Part shown: piece by piece, positions 49,392 through 54,601 of the stretch
Layout: each line of letters starts with the position of its first letter
Position numbering within the stretch: position 1 is the first letter of the stretch
Origin: Leptolyngbya sp. Heron Island J
Lineage (GTDB): Bacteria; Cyanobacteriota; Cyanobacteriia; Phormidesmidales; Phormidesmidaceae
Direction of reading: 5' to 3'
Length of the DNA stretch: 64,000 bases
Assembly: GCF_000482245.1 (NCBI RefSeq)
Contig: NZ_AWNH01000070.1
Location: 1-64,000 of the forward strand
The notes under the pieces: generated by a model
What the model was told of the DNA's origin: nothing
Seen by the model: only the letters and a program-made list of their open reading frames with translations
Databases searched by the model: none
Program-made: the position numbers and the translations under genes

Positions 49392-50606
49392 TTACCCACC
49401 CAATATCTCCTGTACCTGCTGTAGCGATCGCAGCGCCCCTTGCACCAGATTCTGCTGATCTGCTGCCGATAGCGTGGTCTTATTCGATAGACCCAGTAGT
49501 TTAGTTTCAATATCAAACAGTAAATCTGTCACCTGGTCATTGACTCCAGAAACCTGAGGCGTTGCTGGCGATGGGTCGGCCGGTGAGCCCTCGCCAATTT
49601 GGTGCATGGTGCGCTGTAGGCTCTCAATGATGCTATACATCTCAATGGGGTCAAAGACTTTAAGCAGGCTAGTCTGGGTCACAATCCCCAGACCGCTGCC
49701 CCAGTTCCACGACACAACTAAACGGCGCACGTGGCGCATCTGCATTTCCTGATGGGCGGTCCACAATGAATCAGTGGGCTCTAACAAAAACAGGGGTGTA
49801 CTCATCACATCCTGGGCCGTTAACCGCTGCAGATTTAATTCCAGTGCCTGAAACTGAACAATATCGCGCTCTGTAACAATGCCCATGGGCACAAATGCCT
49901 GAATCTCGCGGTGGGTCGTAGCGTGACGATCGACTTCAACAATGACAATGCAGCTCACCCGATGCTCCGCCATCTGTTGGGCTAGTTGGATCACGGGTGT
50001 AGTGGGCAAGGCGTGAACCACATCGGTCGACATCACGTCAGCCACCCGGCGCATCTTGAGCAAATTTGCAGGCCGCAGCACTCGCCGAATGCTATCTGGA
50101 GTCACAATCCCAATGGGATGATTGTGTTCATCAACAATCGGTAAATGCCGAATCCGATAGCGACGGAATAAAAACAACACCGCAAAAATGTCTTGAAAGG
50201 CAGCTTGCTGCAACGTCTTGACTGGTGAGGTCATCGCATCTGCCACGGTCAGCGAGCTTAAGTCCACCCCATCCGCCGTTAGTCTGACGATATCGCGCTC
50301 AGTGAAAATACCAATGATTTGCTGGTTTTCTACGATCAAGGCACAGCTGGCATGACGACCGCCGGAGTGACCTGTGGTTAGTTCGCAATTGCTGCGCACA
50401 GCTCCCATACTTGCGATCGCTCGATTTAAAGTCCAGTCGGGAGCCACCTGTAATATCTGCCGATCAACGGCGTCCGTCATCATCGGGGTGACCGTTTGCC
50501 AGGGGGGAGACGATGTACTCACCTCATCCGCCCCTTGATACCCCTCCATTTCCGAACAACGGGTATCAGATACTGGCGTTAAATTTAAGGCCTTATCAAG
50601 GTACAT
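49392..50606 (-). CDS. protein with four CBS domains
   Basis: This 404-residue protein has an unordered N-terminus, then four CBS units at about 45-105, 118-175, 185-255 and 265-325 (FTERDIVRLTADG, IGIVTPDSIRRVL, MGIVTERDIVQFQAL, LGIVTQTSLLKVF) and a helical C-terminal region (about 330-404). Tandem CBS pairs bind adenine nucleotides and act as energy sensors. Cyanobacterial relatives often attach CBS blocks to PAS/GGDEF signalling parts; no catalytic domain is present here. The target is unknown. Confidence 0.85.
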   Translation of the reverse strand: MYLDKALNLTPVSDTRCSEMEGYQGADEVSTSSPPWQTVTPMMTDAVDRQILQVAPDWTLNRAIASMGAVRSNCELTTGHSGGRHASCALIVENQQIIGIFTERDIVRLTADGVDLSSLTVADAMTSPVKTLQQAAFQDIFAVLFLFRRYRIRHLPIVDEHNHPIGIVTPDSIRRVLRPANLLKMRRVADVMSTDVVHALPTTPVIQLAQQMAEHRVSCIVIVEVDRHATTHREIQAFVPMGIVTERDIVQFQALELNLQRLTAQDVMSTPLFLLEPTDSLWTAHQEMQMRHVRRLVVSWNWGSGLGIVTQTSLLKVFDPIEMYSIIESLQRTMHQIGEGSPADPSPATPQVSGVNDQVTDLLFDIETKLLGLSNKTTLSAADQQNLVQGALRSLQQVQEILGG

Positions 50607-50738
50607 GAGGGATGTAACAGGTAAACAAGATTAAAACTTTATGAGGTATGGACTTTAGCCAACCTGAGGTATATAGTTAGGGGTGTAACGTTTCATCGAT
50701 TGAAAAGCCCATACAAAAAGCATTTGGAAAAGAGCAGG

Positions 50739-51113
50739 TTACACCTGAGTCTCATCTTCAGCCTTAGAGGCAGGCTGGTCAGAAACACTACCGGACATCC
50801 TGGGAGTTTTTCCGTAGAGCCTATCTAGAACACGCTTGACTGATATCCGTTGCCAATCTCTGCCTCGCTTAGTTTTATAGCCCTGGGTATTCATCCAGTT
50901 GGCAATTTGCTGTAGCGATTTTCCAGACTTGTGGTGACGGCGTATGAGTTCGATTACACGCTGTTCTTTCTCATCGGCCACCAGATTACCATTGACTGAT
51001 TTTTCTCCAAACGCAGGCGAGCCATAGCCAGCATAGCCTCCCTGTGCCGCTTTGCTGCGTCTGCCTAGTTCCAATCTTTCCCAGATAGGGTTCTTTTGAG
51101 GGTCAGCAGTCAT
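50739..51113 (-). CDS. orphan recombinase-domain (resolvase HTH-like) small protein
   Basis: The protein has 124 residues. Residues about 15-100 (GRRSKAAQGGYAGYGSPAFG, then EKEQRVIELIRRHHKSGKSLQQIANWMN and KRGRDWQRISVKRVLDRLYG) match the DNA-binding 'recombinase' domain of large serine recombinases, but the catalytic resolvase domain is missing. It should bind DNA and not recombine it on its own. No attachment site or phage gene lies nearby. It could be a regulator or a decayed recombinase that kept its frame. Confidence 0.7.
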   Translation of the reverse strand: MTADPQKNPIWERLELGRRSKAAQGGYAGYGSPAFGEKSVNGNLVADEKEQRVIELIRRHHKSGKSLQQIANWMNTQGYKTKRGRDWQRISVKRVLDRLYGKTPRMSGSVSDQPASKAEDETQV

Positions 51114-51295
51114 AGGCGATCAGAGGATGAACAGTAAACGGGAAACCAGATTAGTAAAACACTACTGATTCAAGCATATAGGTGTTTGGATTTGAGTGTT
51201 TCTATAGCCTATCAAACTTAACCGTGATCCTTGAATGTTGGTCATATCAACCTGGGTGAGTAGTTACATTATTTTTTGCAGAGAGGAGATATTTA

Positions 51296-51592
51296 ATGGC
51301 GACCTACAAGGTGACATTGATCGACGAAGCTGGTGAAAAGCAAGTTATTGATGTACCTGACGATCAGTACATTGTTGATGCAGCTGAGGAGCAGGGCATT
51401 GATTTACCTGTTTCTTGTCGCTCTGGTGCCTGTTCTACCTGTGCTGGCAAGGTGATCTCTGGTGCTGTTGACCAGTCTGATCAGTCGTTTCTAGAAGACG
51501 AACAAATAGAGGCTGGATTCGTACTGACTTGCGTAGCTTATCCCTCGTCTGATTGCACCATTCAAACCCACCAAGAAGACAATCTCGATTGA
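51296..51592 (+). CDS. plant-type [2Fe-2S] ferredoxin
   Basis: This 98-residue protein has the four cluster cysteines in [12 protein letters not shown] (C-x4-C-x2-C) and, about 30 residues later, TCVAYP. The acidic surface stretches ([28 protein letters not shown]) are typical of the photosynthetic PetF type. It carries electrons from photosystem I to reductases. GAGAGGAGA lies just upstream of the start. It is followed by a zinc-ribbon protein and two CBS proteins on the same strand. Cyanobacteria have several paralogues, so I give no symbol. Confidence 0.93.
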
Positions 51593-51618
51593 GTACAACG
51601 ATGGGCTAGGAAAACACC

Positions 51619-51843
51619 ATGTCTGAATTGACATCCCTTTCTTCTCAGCAGATTCGCTGCCCCTACTGTGGGGCCATTGCCGACCGCTACCTTCTAGATA
51701 TCAGTCAGTTTTCTGAACAAATTATCCAGCGATGTACAGCTGATCGTTTTGTGACTCGGACTGTTTGTAACCATTGTGATTACTTAATGGTGTTATGCAC
51801 GAAGAGTGATGCGGTAGTGGAAACCTATATGGCTGGCTTTTAA
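51619..51843 (+). CDS. small zinc-ribbon protein
   Basis: This 74-residue protein has two CxxC pairs, CPYCG (14, 17) and CNHCDY (about 51, 54), that should bind one zinc. The C-terminal VLCTKSDAVVETYMAGF is well kept in cyanobacterial relatives, which are sometimes labelled as replication helicase PriA by error. It begins 26 bp after the ferredoxin stop, so it probably shares its transcript. I do not assign a function. Confidence 0.75.
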   Translation: MSELTSLSSQQIRCPYCGAIADRYLLDISQFSEQIIQRCTADRFVTRTVCNHCDYLMVLCTKSDAVVETYMAGF

Positions 51844-51913
51844 GAAAGGGGCAGTGTTGCGTGTAACGCCTATCCATAGGGATTTTATTTATCAAGTTAA
51901 GGAGATTACGACA

Positions 51914-52375
51914 ATGATGGCAGCGCGGGAAATTATGACCAAGGATGTGATTACCATAAGTGGTTCAGCAACGGTCGCTGAGGCCGTTAAGTTAATGAAA
52001 GAGAAGGGGCTACGGGCCTTGATCGTAGAACGTCGCCATGAAGCCGATCCCTATGGCATGGTGACCGAAACTGACATTGTTTATAAAGTAGCCGCATACG
52101 GTCATGATCCTAAGGAAATGCGGGTTTATCAAATTATGACCAAACCCTGCATTGTGATCACACCAGAGCTGGGTGTGGAATATGTCGCGCGTTTATTCGC
52201 AAATGCAAAAATTCGTTGTGCCCCAGTTGTTCAAGGTCGCCTATTGGGGGTCCTTTCTATTTCAGATATTCTGCGCAAGAGTGACTTTGTTGAAAAACCC
52301 AAAACAAACTTCTATGGTCACAGCTCCTACATGGATGATCCCGAAGTTCTACAAGAGCGCGAATATGACGTTTAA
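51914..52375 (+). CDS. CBS-pair protein, paralogue without CP12 tail
   Basis: Start ATG 51914, with GGAG at 51901-51904, gives 153 residues. Two CBS domains cover residues 1-128 (REIMTKDVITISG, YGMVTETDIVYKVAAYG, GVEYVARLFANAKIRCAPVV, GVLSISDILRKSDF). The tail (YGHSSYMDDPEVLQEREYDV) is acidic and has no cysteine pair. The CBS part is about four-fifths identical by eye to the CBS-CP12 gene downstream, with which it arose by tandem duplication. It probably binds adenine nucleotides. A longer frame to 51854 lacks a suitable start region. Confidence 0.88.
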   Translation: MMAAREIMTKDVITISGSATVAEAVKLMKEKGLRALIVERRHEADPYGMVTETDIVYKVAAYGHDPKEMRVYQIMTKPCIVITPELGVEYVARLFANAKIRCAPVVQGRLLGVLSISDILRKSDFVEKPKTNFYGHSSYMDDPEVLQEREYDV

Positions 52376-52436
52376 GAGGTATTAGGTGCTACCCAGTACT
52401 TTACGCTAGTGTTGTACCTTAATTCAAGTTCAAAAC

Positions 52437-52467
52437 AAGAGGTTCTCTCAATGTGAGAATCTCTTTT
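52437..52467 (+). terminator. intrinsic terminator after the first CBS gene
   Basis: AAGAGGTTCTC (52437-52447) pairs with GAGAATCTCTT (52455-52465), with one G-U pair and a 7-nt loop, followed by TTTT that overlaps the arm. This should end the ferredoxin/zinc-ribbon/CBS transcript. Confidence 0.75.
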
Positions 52468-52566
52468 GTCGTTGCTGATTTAGAGGGTGAACTAATTTGA
52501 AAGCAGTGCAATTAGTCCAGGCTTTTGAAAGCATAGTTCGGATCAGCAACGCCTCTTTTTTTATGT
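52468..52566 (+). ncRNA. candidate structured RNA or leader between the CBS paralogues
   Basis: CGTTGCTGAT (52470-52479) and ATCAGCAACG (52543-52552) are perfect 10-bp arms enclosing 63 nt that contain a small GCTTTTGAAAGC hairpin. CCTC and six T follow the closing arm. The structure is terminator-like and could be a short RNA, or a leader regulating the CBS-CP12 gene that starts 46 bp after the closing arm. Confidence 0.4.
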
Positions 52567-52597
52567 ATATTTTGTTTACCAAGGGATCAGAGCAATC

Positions 52598-53146
52598 ATG
52601 ATGCAGGCAAAGGACATTATGACCGTTAATGTCATTACTATCAGTGGCTCAGCTACCGTTGCTGAAGCCGTTGATTTAATGAAAGATAAGGGTCTACGGG
52701 CGCTGATCGTAGACCGTCGTAGTGAAGACGATCCCTATGGCATGGTGACCGAAACTGACATTGTCTACAAGGTGGCTGCCTATGGCCACAACCCCAAGCA
52801 AATGCGGGTATTTGAAATTATGAGCAAACCCTGCGTTGTCGTCCCCCCAGATCTCGGTGTGGAGTATGTAGCCCGTCTATTTGCAAATACCAAAATCCGT
52901 CGGGCTCCTGTGGTTCAAGGTCGCCTGCTGGGGGTGATTTCGGTGTCAGACATCTTACGTAAGAGCGATTTTGTTGAAAAGCCCAAACGCTTGTTTATTG
53001 AAGATGAAATTGAAGTAGCCCGTCAGGAGGCACGCAAAGTCTGCGATGAGCAAGGAGCCACTTCACCAGCCTGTGCAGCTGCCTGGGATGTGGTCGAAGA
53101 ACTCCAGGCCACTGCTTCCCATCAGAGATCTGCTAAAAACGTCTAG
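52598..53146 (+). CDS. CBS-CP12 fusion protein
   Basis: This 182-residue protein has a CBS pair at residues 1-128 (DIMTVNVITISG, YGMVTETDIVYKVAAYG, GVEYVARLFANTKIRRAPVV). The tail is clearly CP12-like: VARQEARKVCDEQGATSPAC with its cysteine pair, then AAAWDVVEELQATASHQ. CP12 regulates the Calvin cycle by redox-controlled binding of GAPDH and phosphoribulokinase. Here only the N-terminal CP12 half is present; the GAPDH-binding C-terminal cysteine loop is missing. CBS-CP12 fusions are known in cyanobacteria as AMP-binding, oligomeric proteins. It joins energy and redox sensing. Confidence 0.9.
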   Translation: MMQAKDIMTVNVITISGSATVAEAVDLMKDKGLRALIVDRRSEDDPYGMVTETDIVYKVAAYGHNPKQMRVFEIMSKPCVVVPPDLGVEYVARLFANTKIRRAPVVQGRLLGVISVSDILRKSDFVEKPKRLFIEDEIEVARQEARKVCDEQGATSPACAAAWDVVEELQATASHQRSAKNV

Positions 53147-54601
53147 CTTAAGCGGTTGCACCTGACTAACCTACGCGTATTAATTAGCTAATCAACACCA
53201 GCCCGCTGCTTGTCCACTGTGGTCAAACAGCGGTTGGTTCCAAATAGATTGCCCTCCCTACTTCCCAGGCTGGCATTTTTTAAGTTCAGTTTGCTCCGGC
53301 ATTGAGCACAAAATTCTTGAGCAGTCACCCCTATCTGCCGTACTTTCTCGTTGAATCTGCTGCCACCCCTTAAAGCGACTTTCAGCTCACTGCAATCAAA
53401 ACTTCTACTTTAGTCTAGGTATGTTCTAGATCAGGCAATCGCTATTAAGAACAGATCAGCTTTCAAAAATATACCGGGCTAGCTCACTTTAAACAATGCC
53501 CGATCGCTCTGCTCTCAGTAATTACCTCTACAACTTTGGTATGTTTTAAGTCGGATACTTCTTAAAATCTAACCTTAACTCTTCCATCCCAATAATTTGT
53601 CTCAGGACACTTTTCCGTTATCTGGTGATATCTCGCTAATATAAAAATTATTTGTAAATCTACTTTGGTCTACATGAAAACGAATTGTTTAATAGAATAC
53701 TATCTTAAGAACGGCTCGTTCACGCTACTCCGAAGCATAGGCTGACTACTTTGTACAGGCCAACTACTTCATTTCAATTTACTGTTAAGAGAGTTGGAAA
53801 AATCTACCATATTAAAAGGTTTCTAAGCATCAGGGCCTTTCTAAGTGATAGATAAGGTAGGATCAGAAATATCTGTATCTCCAATTCATCAGGGATAACT
53901 TTTTCTGCCTCGCCCGCATATCCGTTCCATCTCATGAGCTGACTGATGAATGCCGCTTTGTTGTGTTTATGCCCTTGAAAAAATAAAAATAATTACTATC
54001 TCTTCATTGACCCCTGAGAGGTTGTAAAAAAAGGATTAAATGTGCTGGTTATCTCCCCAAATCCATCAATTTTGTGGGACTTTACGCTAGATCTTCCTAA
54101 AGTTGGGAAAACCCAAATATATCTAATTGAGATATTAGGTTGGGATATTAGGATTCTTTCCAACTAGGAAGTTTATCCAGTTCTGGATACTGCTTTTAAA
54201 GCTTCCCCCTTTAAAAGCCGCTGTCAAATAAGTATCTAAATTTCAGATTAGATTGCCGGAGAAACAGCTGCAAATAATGAATAGAGTTTTGTATCAATTG
54301 TGTTTCCCTTTAAGCCAAGTTAAAAATATCACATCGGAATAGCGCTATAGGAGCTATTTACACTATGGATAGTACTCTCAGAAATTAATTTTTTCAAGCA
54401 TTCTACAGAAGTTTGTCAAAATTGCTGATTTTTGAGGGTTTTTGGAACCTTGTTGAATCTATGTTTTTCATCAAAAACTTGATATGTAGATTCACGTGAC
54501 TTTGCTTAAAATCTCAAACTTGAGACCTGGAAGATTTTCAAGTTTTAGTTCCTTCACATTTTTATCTTCAGTTTGACTTGAGATGAGGTAGTAGTCCATG
54601 G
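53147..54601. other. 1455-bp gene-free AT-rich region upstream of the taxis operon
   Basis: I find no convincing gene on either strand. The clearest structure is a stem, GCTTTTAAAG (54192-54201) with CTTTAAAAGC (54209-54218) and a 7-nt loop, plus the small repeat TCTCAA-AC-TTGAGA (54512-54525). The length suggests a long leader, an unseen small RNA or decayed sequence. It ends at the PatA-like gene and should hold the operon promoter. Confidence 0.45.

Follow-up and report, generated by a model that had tools for sequence, protein, structure and literature searches.

A CBS-CP12 protein divided over two adjacent genes of a cyanobacterial redox cassette

In the 64-kb stretch of DNA analysed here (the window), the CP12 domain known from CBS-CP12 proteins is divided over two neighbouring paralogous genes. 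The second of them (gene 4) carries the N-terminal part of CP12 (N-part) behind its CBS pair, and the loop that it lacks has its counterpart in the adjacent gene 3, which ends in a tail orthologous to the C-terminal CP12 part (C-part), though one that is cysteine-free in the window genus. This division is conserved in other cyanobacteria, where the gene 3 class, which we call CBS-C, forms a mosaic of CBS region and tail and belongs to a conserved redox cassette. We propose, giving the idea an even chance, that a CBS-CP12 protein divided in this way would work through mixed oligomers, in which the N-part subunit provides a redox-responsive contact with phosphoribulokinase (PRK), the CBS-C subunit sets oligomer size or hairpin number, and AMP conveys the energy state.

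The four genes of the original prediction are real open reading frames (ORFs), arranged head to tail on the + strand at the places claimed. The features of this region are:

51296..51592, + strand: [2Fe-2S] plant-type ferredoxin (PF00111 3.4e-25; TIGR02008 6.6e-50)
51619..51843, + strand: CxxC (zinc-ribbon-like) protein of 74 aa, from a family without a name, assigned by its cysteine pattern
51914..52375, + strand: gene 3, CBS-C, a CBS pair without CP12 N-part (PF00571 6.7e-28)
52325..52372, + strand: tail of gene 3 (residues 138-153), with both CP12 cysteines absent and P143, R149 and Y151 kept
52437..52465, + strand: terminator-like stem between the two CBS genes (11-pair stem, then T)
52598..53146, + strand: gene 4, CBS-CP12N, a CBS pair plus CP12 N-part only, 182 aa (PF00571 2.2e-27; PF02672 5.9e-16)
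52997..53137, + strand: CP12 N-part of gene 4, with cysteine pair and AWD_VEEL core

The longest frame of gene 3 opens with GTG at 51854, but homologues place its start at the ATG at 51914, giving 153 aa with the stop at 52375. Genes 3 and 4 are 81% identical over residues 1-134, and both match the CBS-CP12 structure 5nmu (4e-62 and 1.6e-86, respectively). With PF00571 and PF02672 both above cut-off, gene 4 joins a CBS pair to a CP12 part; its PF02672 match spans model positions 1-47 of 70, so that the C-terminal cysteine loop is absent, which bears out the earlier claim that its CP12 half lacks the GAPDH-binding loop. A canonical CP12 unites both cysteine pairs with the AWD_VEEL core in a single chain, and neither gene encodes one: of these features, gene 4 has just the N pair and the core, and gene 3 has none. 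The 8.06-Mb genome holds seven CP12-family places, including gene 4 and one full match (G000:C45), and PRK-family proteins were also found in it. As for the 74-aa protein, the label “zinc ribbon” stands as far as the cysteine pattern goes, but no Pfam or NCBIfam model matches it above cut-off.

The region has three terminator-like sites against a shuffle mean of 2.5, a count not above that of shuffles, and three promoter-like sites against a shuffle mean of 3.1; the gap at 52376-52597 folds with a z of −1.6 (13 of 200 shuffles fold equally well), and an Rfam scan of 50500-53700 returned no match at E 0.1. Near the pair, the opposite strand encodes a 404-aa protein that has four CBS stretches (49392-50606; PF00571 5.1e-34). 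Also on that strand, a 124-aa ORF (50739-51113) with a partial match to the PF07508 Recombinase model (4.4e-8, positions 2-50 of 102) is perhaps a recombinase fragment. In the roughly 1.45 kb 3′ of the pair (53147-54601), no ORF longer than 55 aa was listed.

According to the original prediction, the CBS gene is duplicated in tandem and the second copy alone carries a CP12 half. The duplication is there, and a recognisable CP12 part is indeed confined to the second copy; the first copy, however, is not a plain CBS protein. A bare CBS pair can be ruled out for gene 3 by its orthologues, which carry a CP12 C-part. Pfam CP12 matches 8 of the 13 members of our CBS-C alignment A1 (best 2.3e-8, model positions 47-70), and across the family the spans are 47-70 in C proteins, 1-45 to 1-49 in N-only partners and 1-70 in full-length proteins. 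Of 39 genomes searched, that of the window among them, three (G014, G022 and G025) have C-type copies that end like FELYCEENPNAPEARIYDD. Scanned singly with PF02672, neither the gene 3 product nor its congeners L127 and L131 gave a match, so Pfam itself recognises no CP12 part in gene 3. In alignment A4 (37 rows, 33 C-type and four full-length), a clean gap follows KPK where the N-part would be, and P143, R149 and Y151 are invariant in all 37 rows, that of the window included. Gene 3 thus shows every feature of the CBS-C class in A4: the CBS pair, the KPKxxF junction, the P/R/Y tail in register and no N-part.

How widespread is this arrangement? The gene pair occurs in five of the seven other genomes of the genus, which argues for more than chance; the two that lack it have a completeness of 70-75%. 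One member of the window's genus group is Adonisia turfae CCMR0081 (L127). A scan of a genome collection confirmed 234 stretches, and the 80 of these most like CBS-C yielded 79 named loci, a sample therefore enriched for CBS-C; the protein is encoded in 43 of these 79. In 36 of the 43, a CBS-CP12 protein bearing an N-part adjoins it on the same strand, in either order and at a spacing of 31-1541 bases (17 N-only and 19 full-length partners). The other seven have no partner in the fetched DNA: four in Acaryochloris (L081, L083, L092 and L095), one each in Moorena (L084) and Lyngbya confervoides (L101), and one at a contig edge (L109). In a separate draw of 386 cyanobacterial genomes (132 census rows, one a duplicate fragment), 86 had a relative with an E value of 1e-40 or below and seven had CBS-C (G000, G060, G138, G167, G187, G276 and G390), the last of them without a partner. 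Eight census genomes encode an N-only protein of at most 190 aa without CBS-C: G085, G100, G183 and G189, under a genus code common to three carriers, and G091, G155, G356 and G398. Loss of the C-part therefore does not require CBS-C. With L089, L107, L129, L132 and L138 left out beforehand, the C-part is absent from 17 of 35 proteins with an adjoining CBS-C versus 5 of 32 without, and a tree-based test of this association, which had three independent pairs only, gave no signal. One further locus deserves mention: at 2448-2945 of L224 (G106), a 165-aa CBS protein with no recognisable CP12 core that ends in DNWCSG precedes a CBS-CP12 and is perhaps a second, separate C-part-only copy.

The CBS region and the tail of CBS-C have different nearest relatives. 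A 114-row tree built from the CBS region does not recover CBS-C as one clade; many of its members fall beside the neighbouring gene of their own locus, and the four C and four N rows of the window genus cluster together (node value 99). At all 19 loci with a full-length partner, L087 and L089 among them being near-copies, the CBS region is nearer to the partner than to the median other CBS-C (mean 85 versus 78%), although the most similar CBS-C protein, when it comes from a close species, can outscore the partner. The tail, at the same 19 of 19 loci, is nearer to the median CBS-C tail than to that of the partner (74 versus 60%). This mosaic suggests gene conversion, and the identical DNA runs within pairs agree with conversion of the CBS region in part: 6 of 37 pairs are significant at p <0.01 and 31 are not, the former including Snowella (185 nt, p 0.0005), the window (36 nt, p 0.004) and L131 (50 nt, p 0.0045), while in L087 and L089 a longer start shifts the register, which leaves these two pairs uninformative. 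The simplest reading is that the split arose once, long ago, and that conversion later acted on the CBS region. Alternatively, the split may have arisen repeatedly, as the lack of one CBS-C clade in the CBS tree would allow; a separate origin in the window genus is not favoured by these comparisons because the junction and the tail register are shared.

One alternative is that CBS-C forms a homodimer with another target, tied to CBS-CP12 merely by a shared operon and ligand, and the partnerless copies in Acaryochloris, Moorena and Lyngbya confervoides, the good conservation of the CBS-C tail motif by itself and the terminator-like stem between the two CBS genes of the window all fit such a pair of independent sensors. 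Against this, the partner adjoins CBS-C in most loci, and the CBS regions track their neighbour. We consider independent sensors unlikely, if still worth keeping in mind, and regard mixed oligomers of the products of genes 3 and 4, which the original prediction sensibly raised as a hypothesis, as the likeliest candidate mechanism.

A second possibility is that N and C subunits of one oligomer restore a full CP12 in trans and link PRK to GAPDH in the manner of canonical CP12, and the division of the CP12 model exactly at position 47 would be expected from it. The cysteines speak against it: none of the 43 CBS-C proteins has the second cysteine of the C pair, 38 of them retain the first, and the tails of the window genus have neither; both are present in 17 of the 19 full-length partners. 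Docking to GAPDH in the classical manner is unlikely for a C tail that lacks the second cysteine, and strict complementation is disfavoured both by this and by the N-only proteins that exist without CBS-C. In addition, according to the available parts of the respective papers, Synechocystis CP12 needs its C-terminal pair to associate with GapDH2 (PMC9623430), and the full-length CBS-CP12 of Microcystis forms a hexamer, binds AMP and inhibits thioredoxin activation of PRK, and is reported not to enter a ternary complex (PMC9406205). Restoration in trans is accordingly improbable in our judgement.

Could the gene 3 tail instead be the decaying remnant of a tandem duplication, with CBS regions homogenised by chance? 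Conversion between tandem copies can be neutral, the gene is absent from some relatives, and the window-genus tail has lost both cysteines and any Pfam match. The tail of the window is also unremarkable when scored against profiles: 229 of 5000 shuffles do as well against the profile of other CBS-C tails (6, 13, 259 and 259 of 5000 for the tails of four congeners) and 1322 of 5000 against that of full-length tails. A register test anchored on R-x-Y gave p 0.003 for the window and p 0.00165 for the five-genome mean, in a register picked after the alignment was seen. Taken alone, the window tail is thus weaker evidence for a CP12 C-part, and the assignment is carried by orthology, junction and position. 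However, pN/pS over five genomes is 0.053 for tail residues 139-153, the same as for the CBS region (0.053), versus 0.199 for the linker beside the tail, and the P/R/Y motif is kept across many cyanobacterial families in A4. The tail of the window genus is under purifying selection and as constrained as the CBS region, and a neutral leftover seems to us a very doubtful explanation.

We next turn to the surroundings of the pair. The redox neighbourhood that had been proposed for the CBS genes was confirmed: the ferredoxin and CxxC genes are not incidental but members of a conserved cassette. Counting loci with a homologue in the fetched stretch (E 1e-3, raw as to contig ends), 27 of the 43 CBS-C loci have ferredoxin, 37 have thioredoxin and 34 have the CxxC protein, compared with 8, 19 and 17, respectively, of the 36 loci without CBS-C. 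A homologue of a plasmid adenylate kinase (PF00406 4.9e-37) occurs in 17 of the 79 loci, 13 of them with CBS-C, and none lies within the 64-kb window. In Snowella, the order thioredoxin, CxxC, CBS-C, adenylate kinase, ferredoxin, CxxC, CBS-CP12 resembles a tandem of two incomplete copies of the same cassette. On the mobilizable plasmid pUHCC0039a of Nodularia spumigena (L260), genes for a nucleoside monophosphate kinase, trxA, CxxC, CBS-C and CBS-CP12N lie in a row, in an annotation that has the CxxC protein as hypothetical and both CBS proteins merely as CBS domain-containing proteins. That plasmid cassette, with the adenylate kinase-like gene at its head, sits between transposase genes, and a short recombinase family gene lies nearby.

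The CBS-CP12 cluster was reportedly linked to trxA by Hackenberg in 2018. The loci of the window genus have no thioredoxin gene in the cluster, as no WCGPC ORF is present in them. Nevertheless, loss of trxA from the genome is ruled out by an unlinked cassette-type copy: the thioredoxin at G000:C36 and those of the five pair-bearing congeners form one clade (100/100) inside the cassette thioredoxin group, and the fetched stretches with the congeners' copies have no CBS gene. The cassette thioredoxin of the window genus thus seems to have moved rather than vanished. An in-frame TAG in some thioredoxin hits was discounted on the one case read, G000:C60, whose frame runs to the normal C-terminal end.

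In the predicted CBS-C structures, two of five models near 81 and three near 53, the CBS pair is ordered and most of the tail has a pLDDT <50, and Foldseek returned chains of 5nmu, 5npl and 5nvd as top matches. CBS-CP12N is predicted to combine that same CBS pair with a helical hairpin (residues 134-152 and 157-181). Gene 4 keeps the cysteine pair and AWD_VEEL hairpin of the N-part, and gene 3 has only the C-terminal tail. This N-part is the PRK-facing part of CP12. The nearest protein of solved structure is an AMP-binding hexamer, which is in favour of the proposed oligomer. It is tempting to speculate that near-identical CBS modules would let the N and C proteins co-assemble, with N subunits giving the redox-responsive contact with PRK and C subunits, lacking the hairpin, diluting or shaping the oligomer by setting its size or hairpin number. 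AMP on the CBS modules would report the energy state, and the ferredoxin and thioredoxin of the cassette the redox state. Given that the window-genus tail can form no disulfide, we expect the C subunit of this genus to tune the oligomer while being blind to the redox state. The CP12 domain is said to be needed for hexamers (Hackenberg, in 2018), and CBS-C may therefore not enter a hexamer. In its fullest form, the proposal is of a hetero-oligomeric sensor whose CP12 is shared out between two paralogous subunits that bind AMP and that gene conversion keeps compatible, where the N:C ratio, AMP and redox state together would set Calvin-cycle inhibition and the C tail would have a new, redox-independent role; we offer this version only tentatively, as possible rather than probable.

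Among known systems, Microcystis aeruginosa CBS-CP12 (5nmu, 5npl, 5nvd) has the same CBS pair as both genes and the same CP12 N-part as gene 4, but there a single protein holds both CP12 parts (relative L117, Pfam CP12 1-70), whereas the window has two proteins. A Synechococcus CBS-CP12 cannot stand in for Synechocystis CP12, according to the accessible text of PMC9514657. Gene 4 fits the CP12-N-CBS class of Stanley 2013 as PMC3906501 gives it, with CBS pair, N cysteine pair, AWD_VEE core and no C pair, and gene 3, with neither N-part nor core, falls outside all three CBS classes in that list. A CP12-like C-part on another domain, as in CBS-C, is found in plant GapB and Chlamydomonas ADK3, according to the available portions of PMC9406205 and PMC4436894; the regulatory tail of GapB, however, acts via two cysteines, and CBS-C tails have one or none. 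A CBS protein with the C-part alone is not mentioned in the available portions of the literature searched (PMC9514657, PMC9406205, PMC3906501, PMC10070481, PMC9025218, PMC7281370, PMC3610870, PMC9623430 and PMC4436894), and a mention in Hackenberg 2018 or Stanley 2013 is possible. The CBS-CP12 family itself is already known.

CBS-CP12 proteins tie the adenylate level and the redox state to phosphoribulokinase. If our proposal is true, a C-part-only class beside them would allow this regulator to be a mixed oligomer of tunable composition, in a class that spans many cyanobacterial families and a mobilizable Nodularia plasmid. The pair is also a case of one domain divided over two duplicates, with the shared scaffold staying alike.
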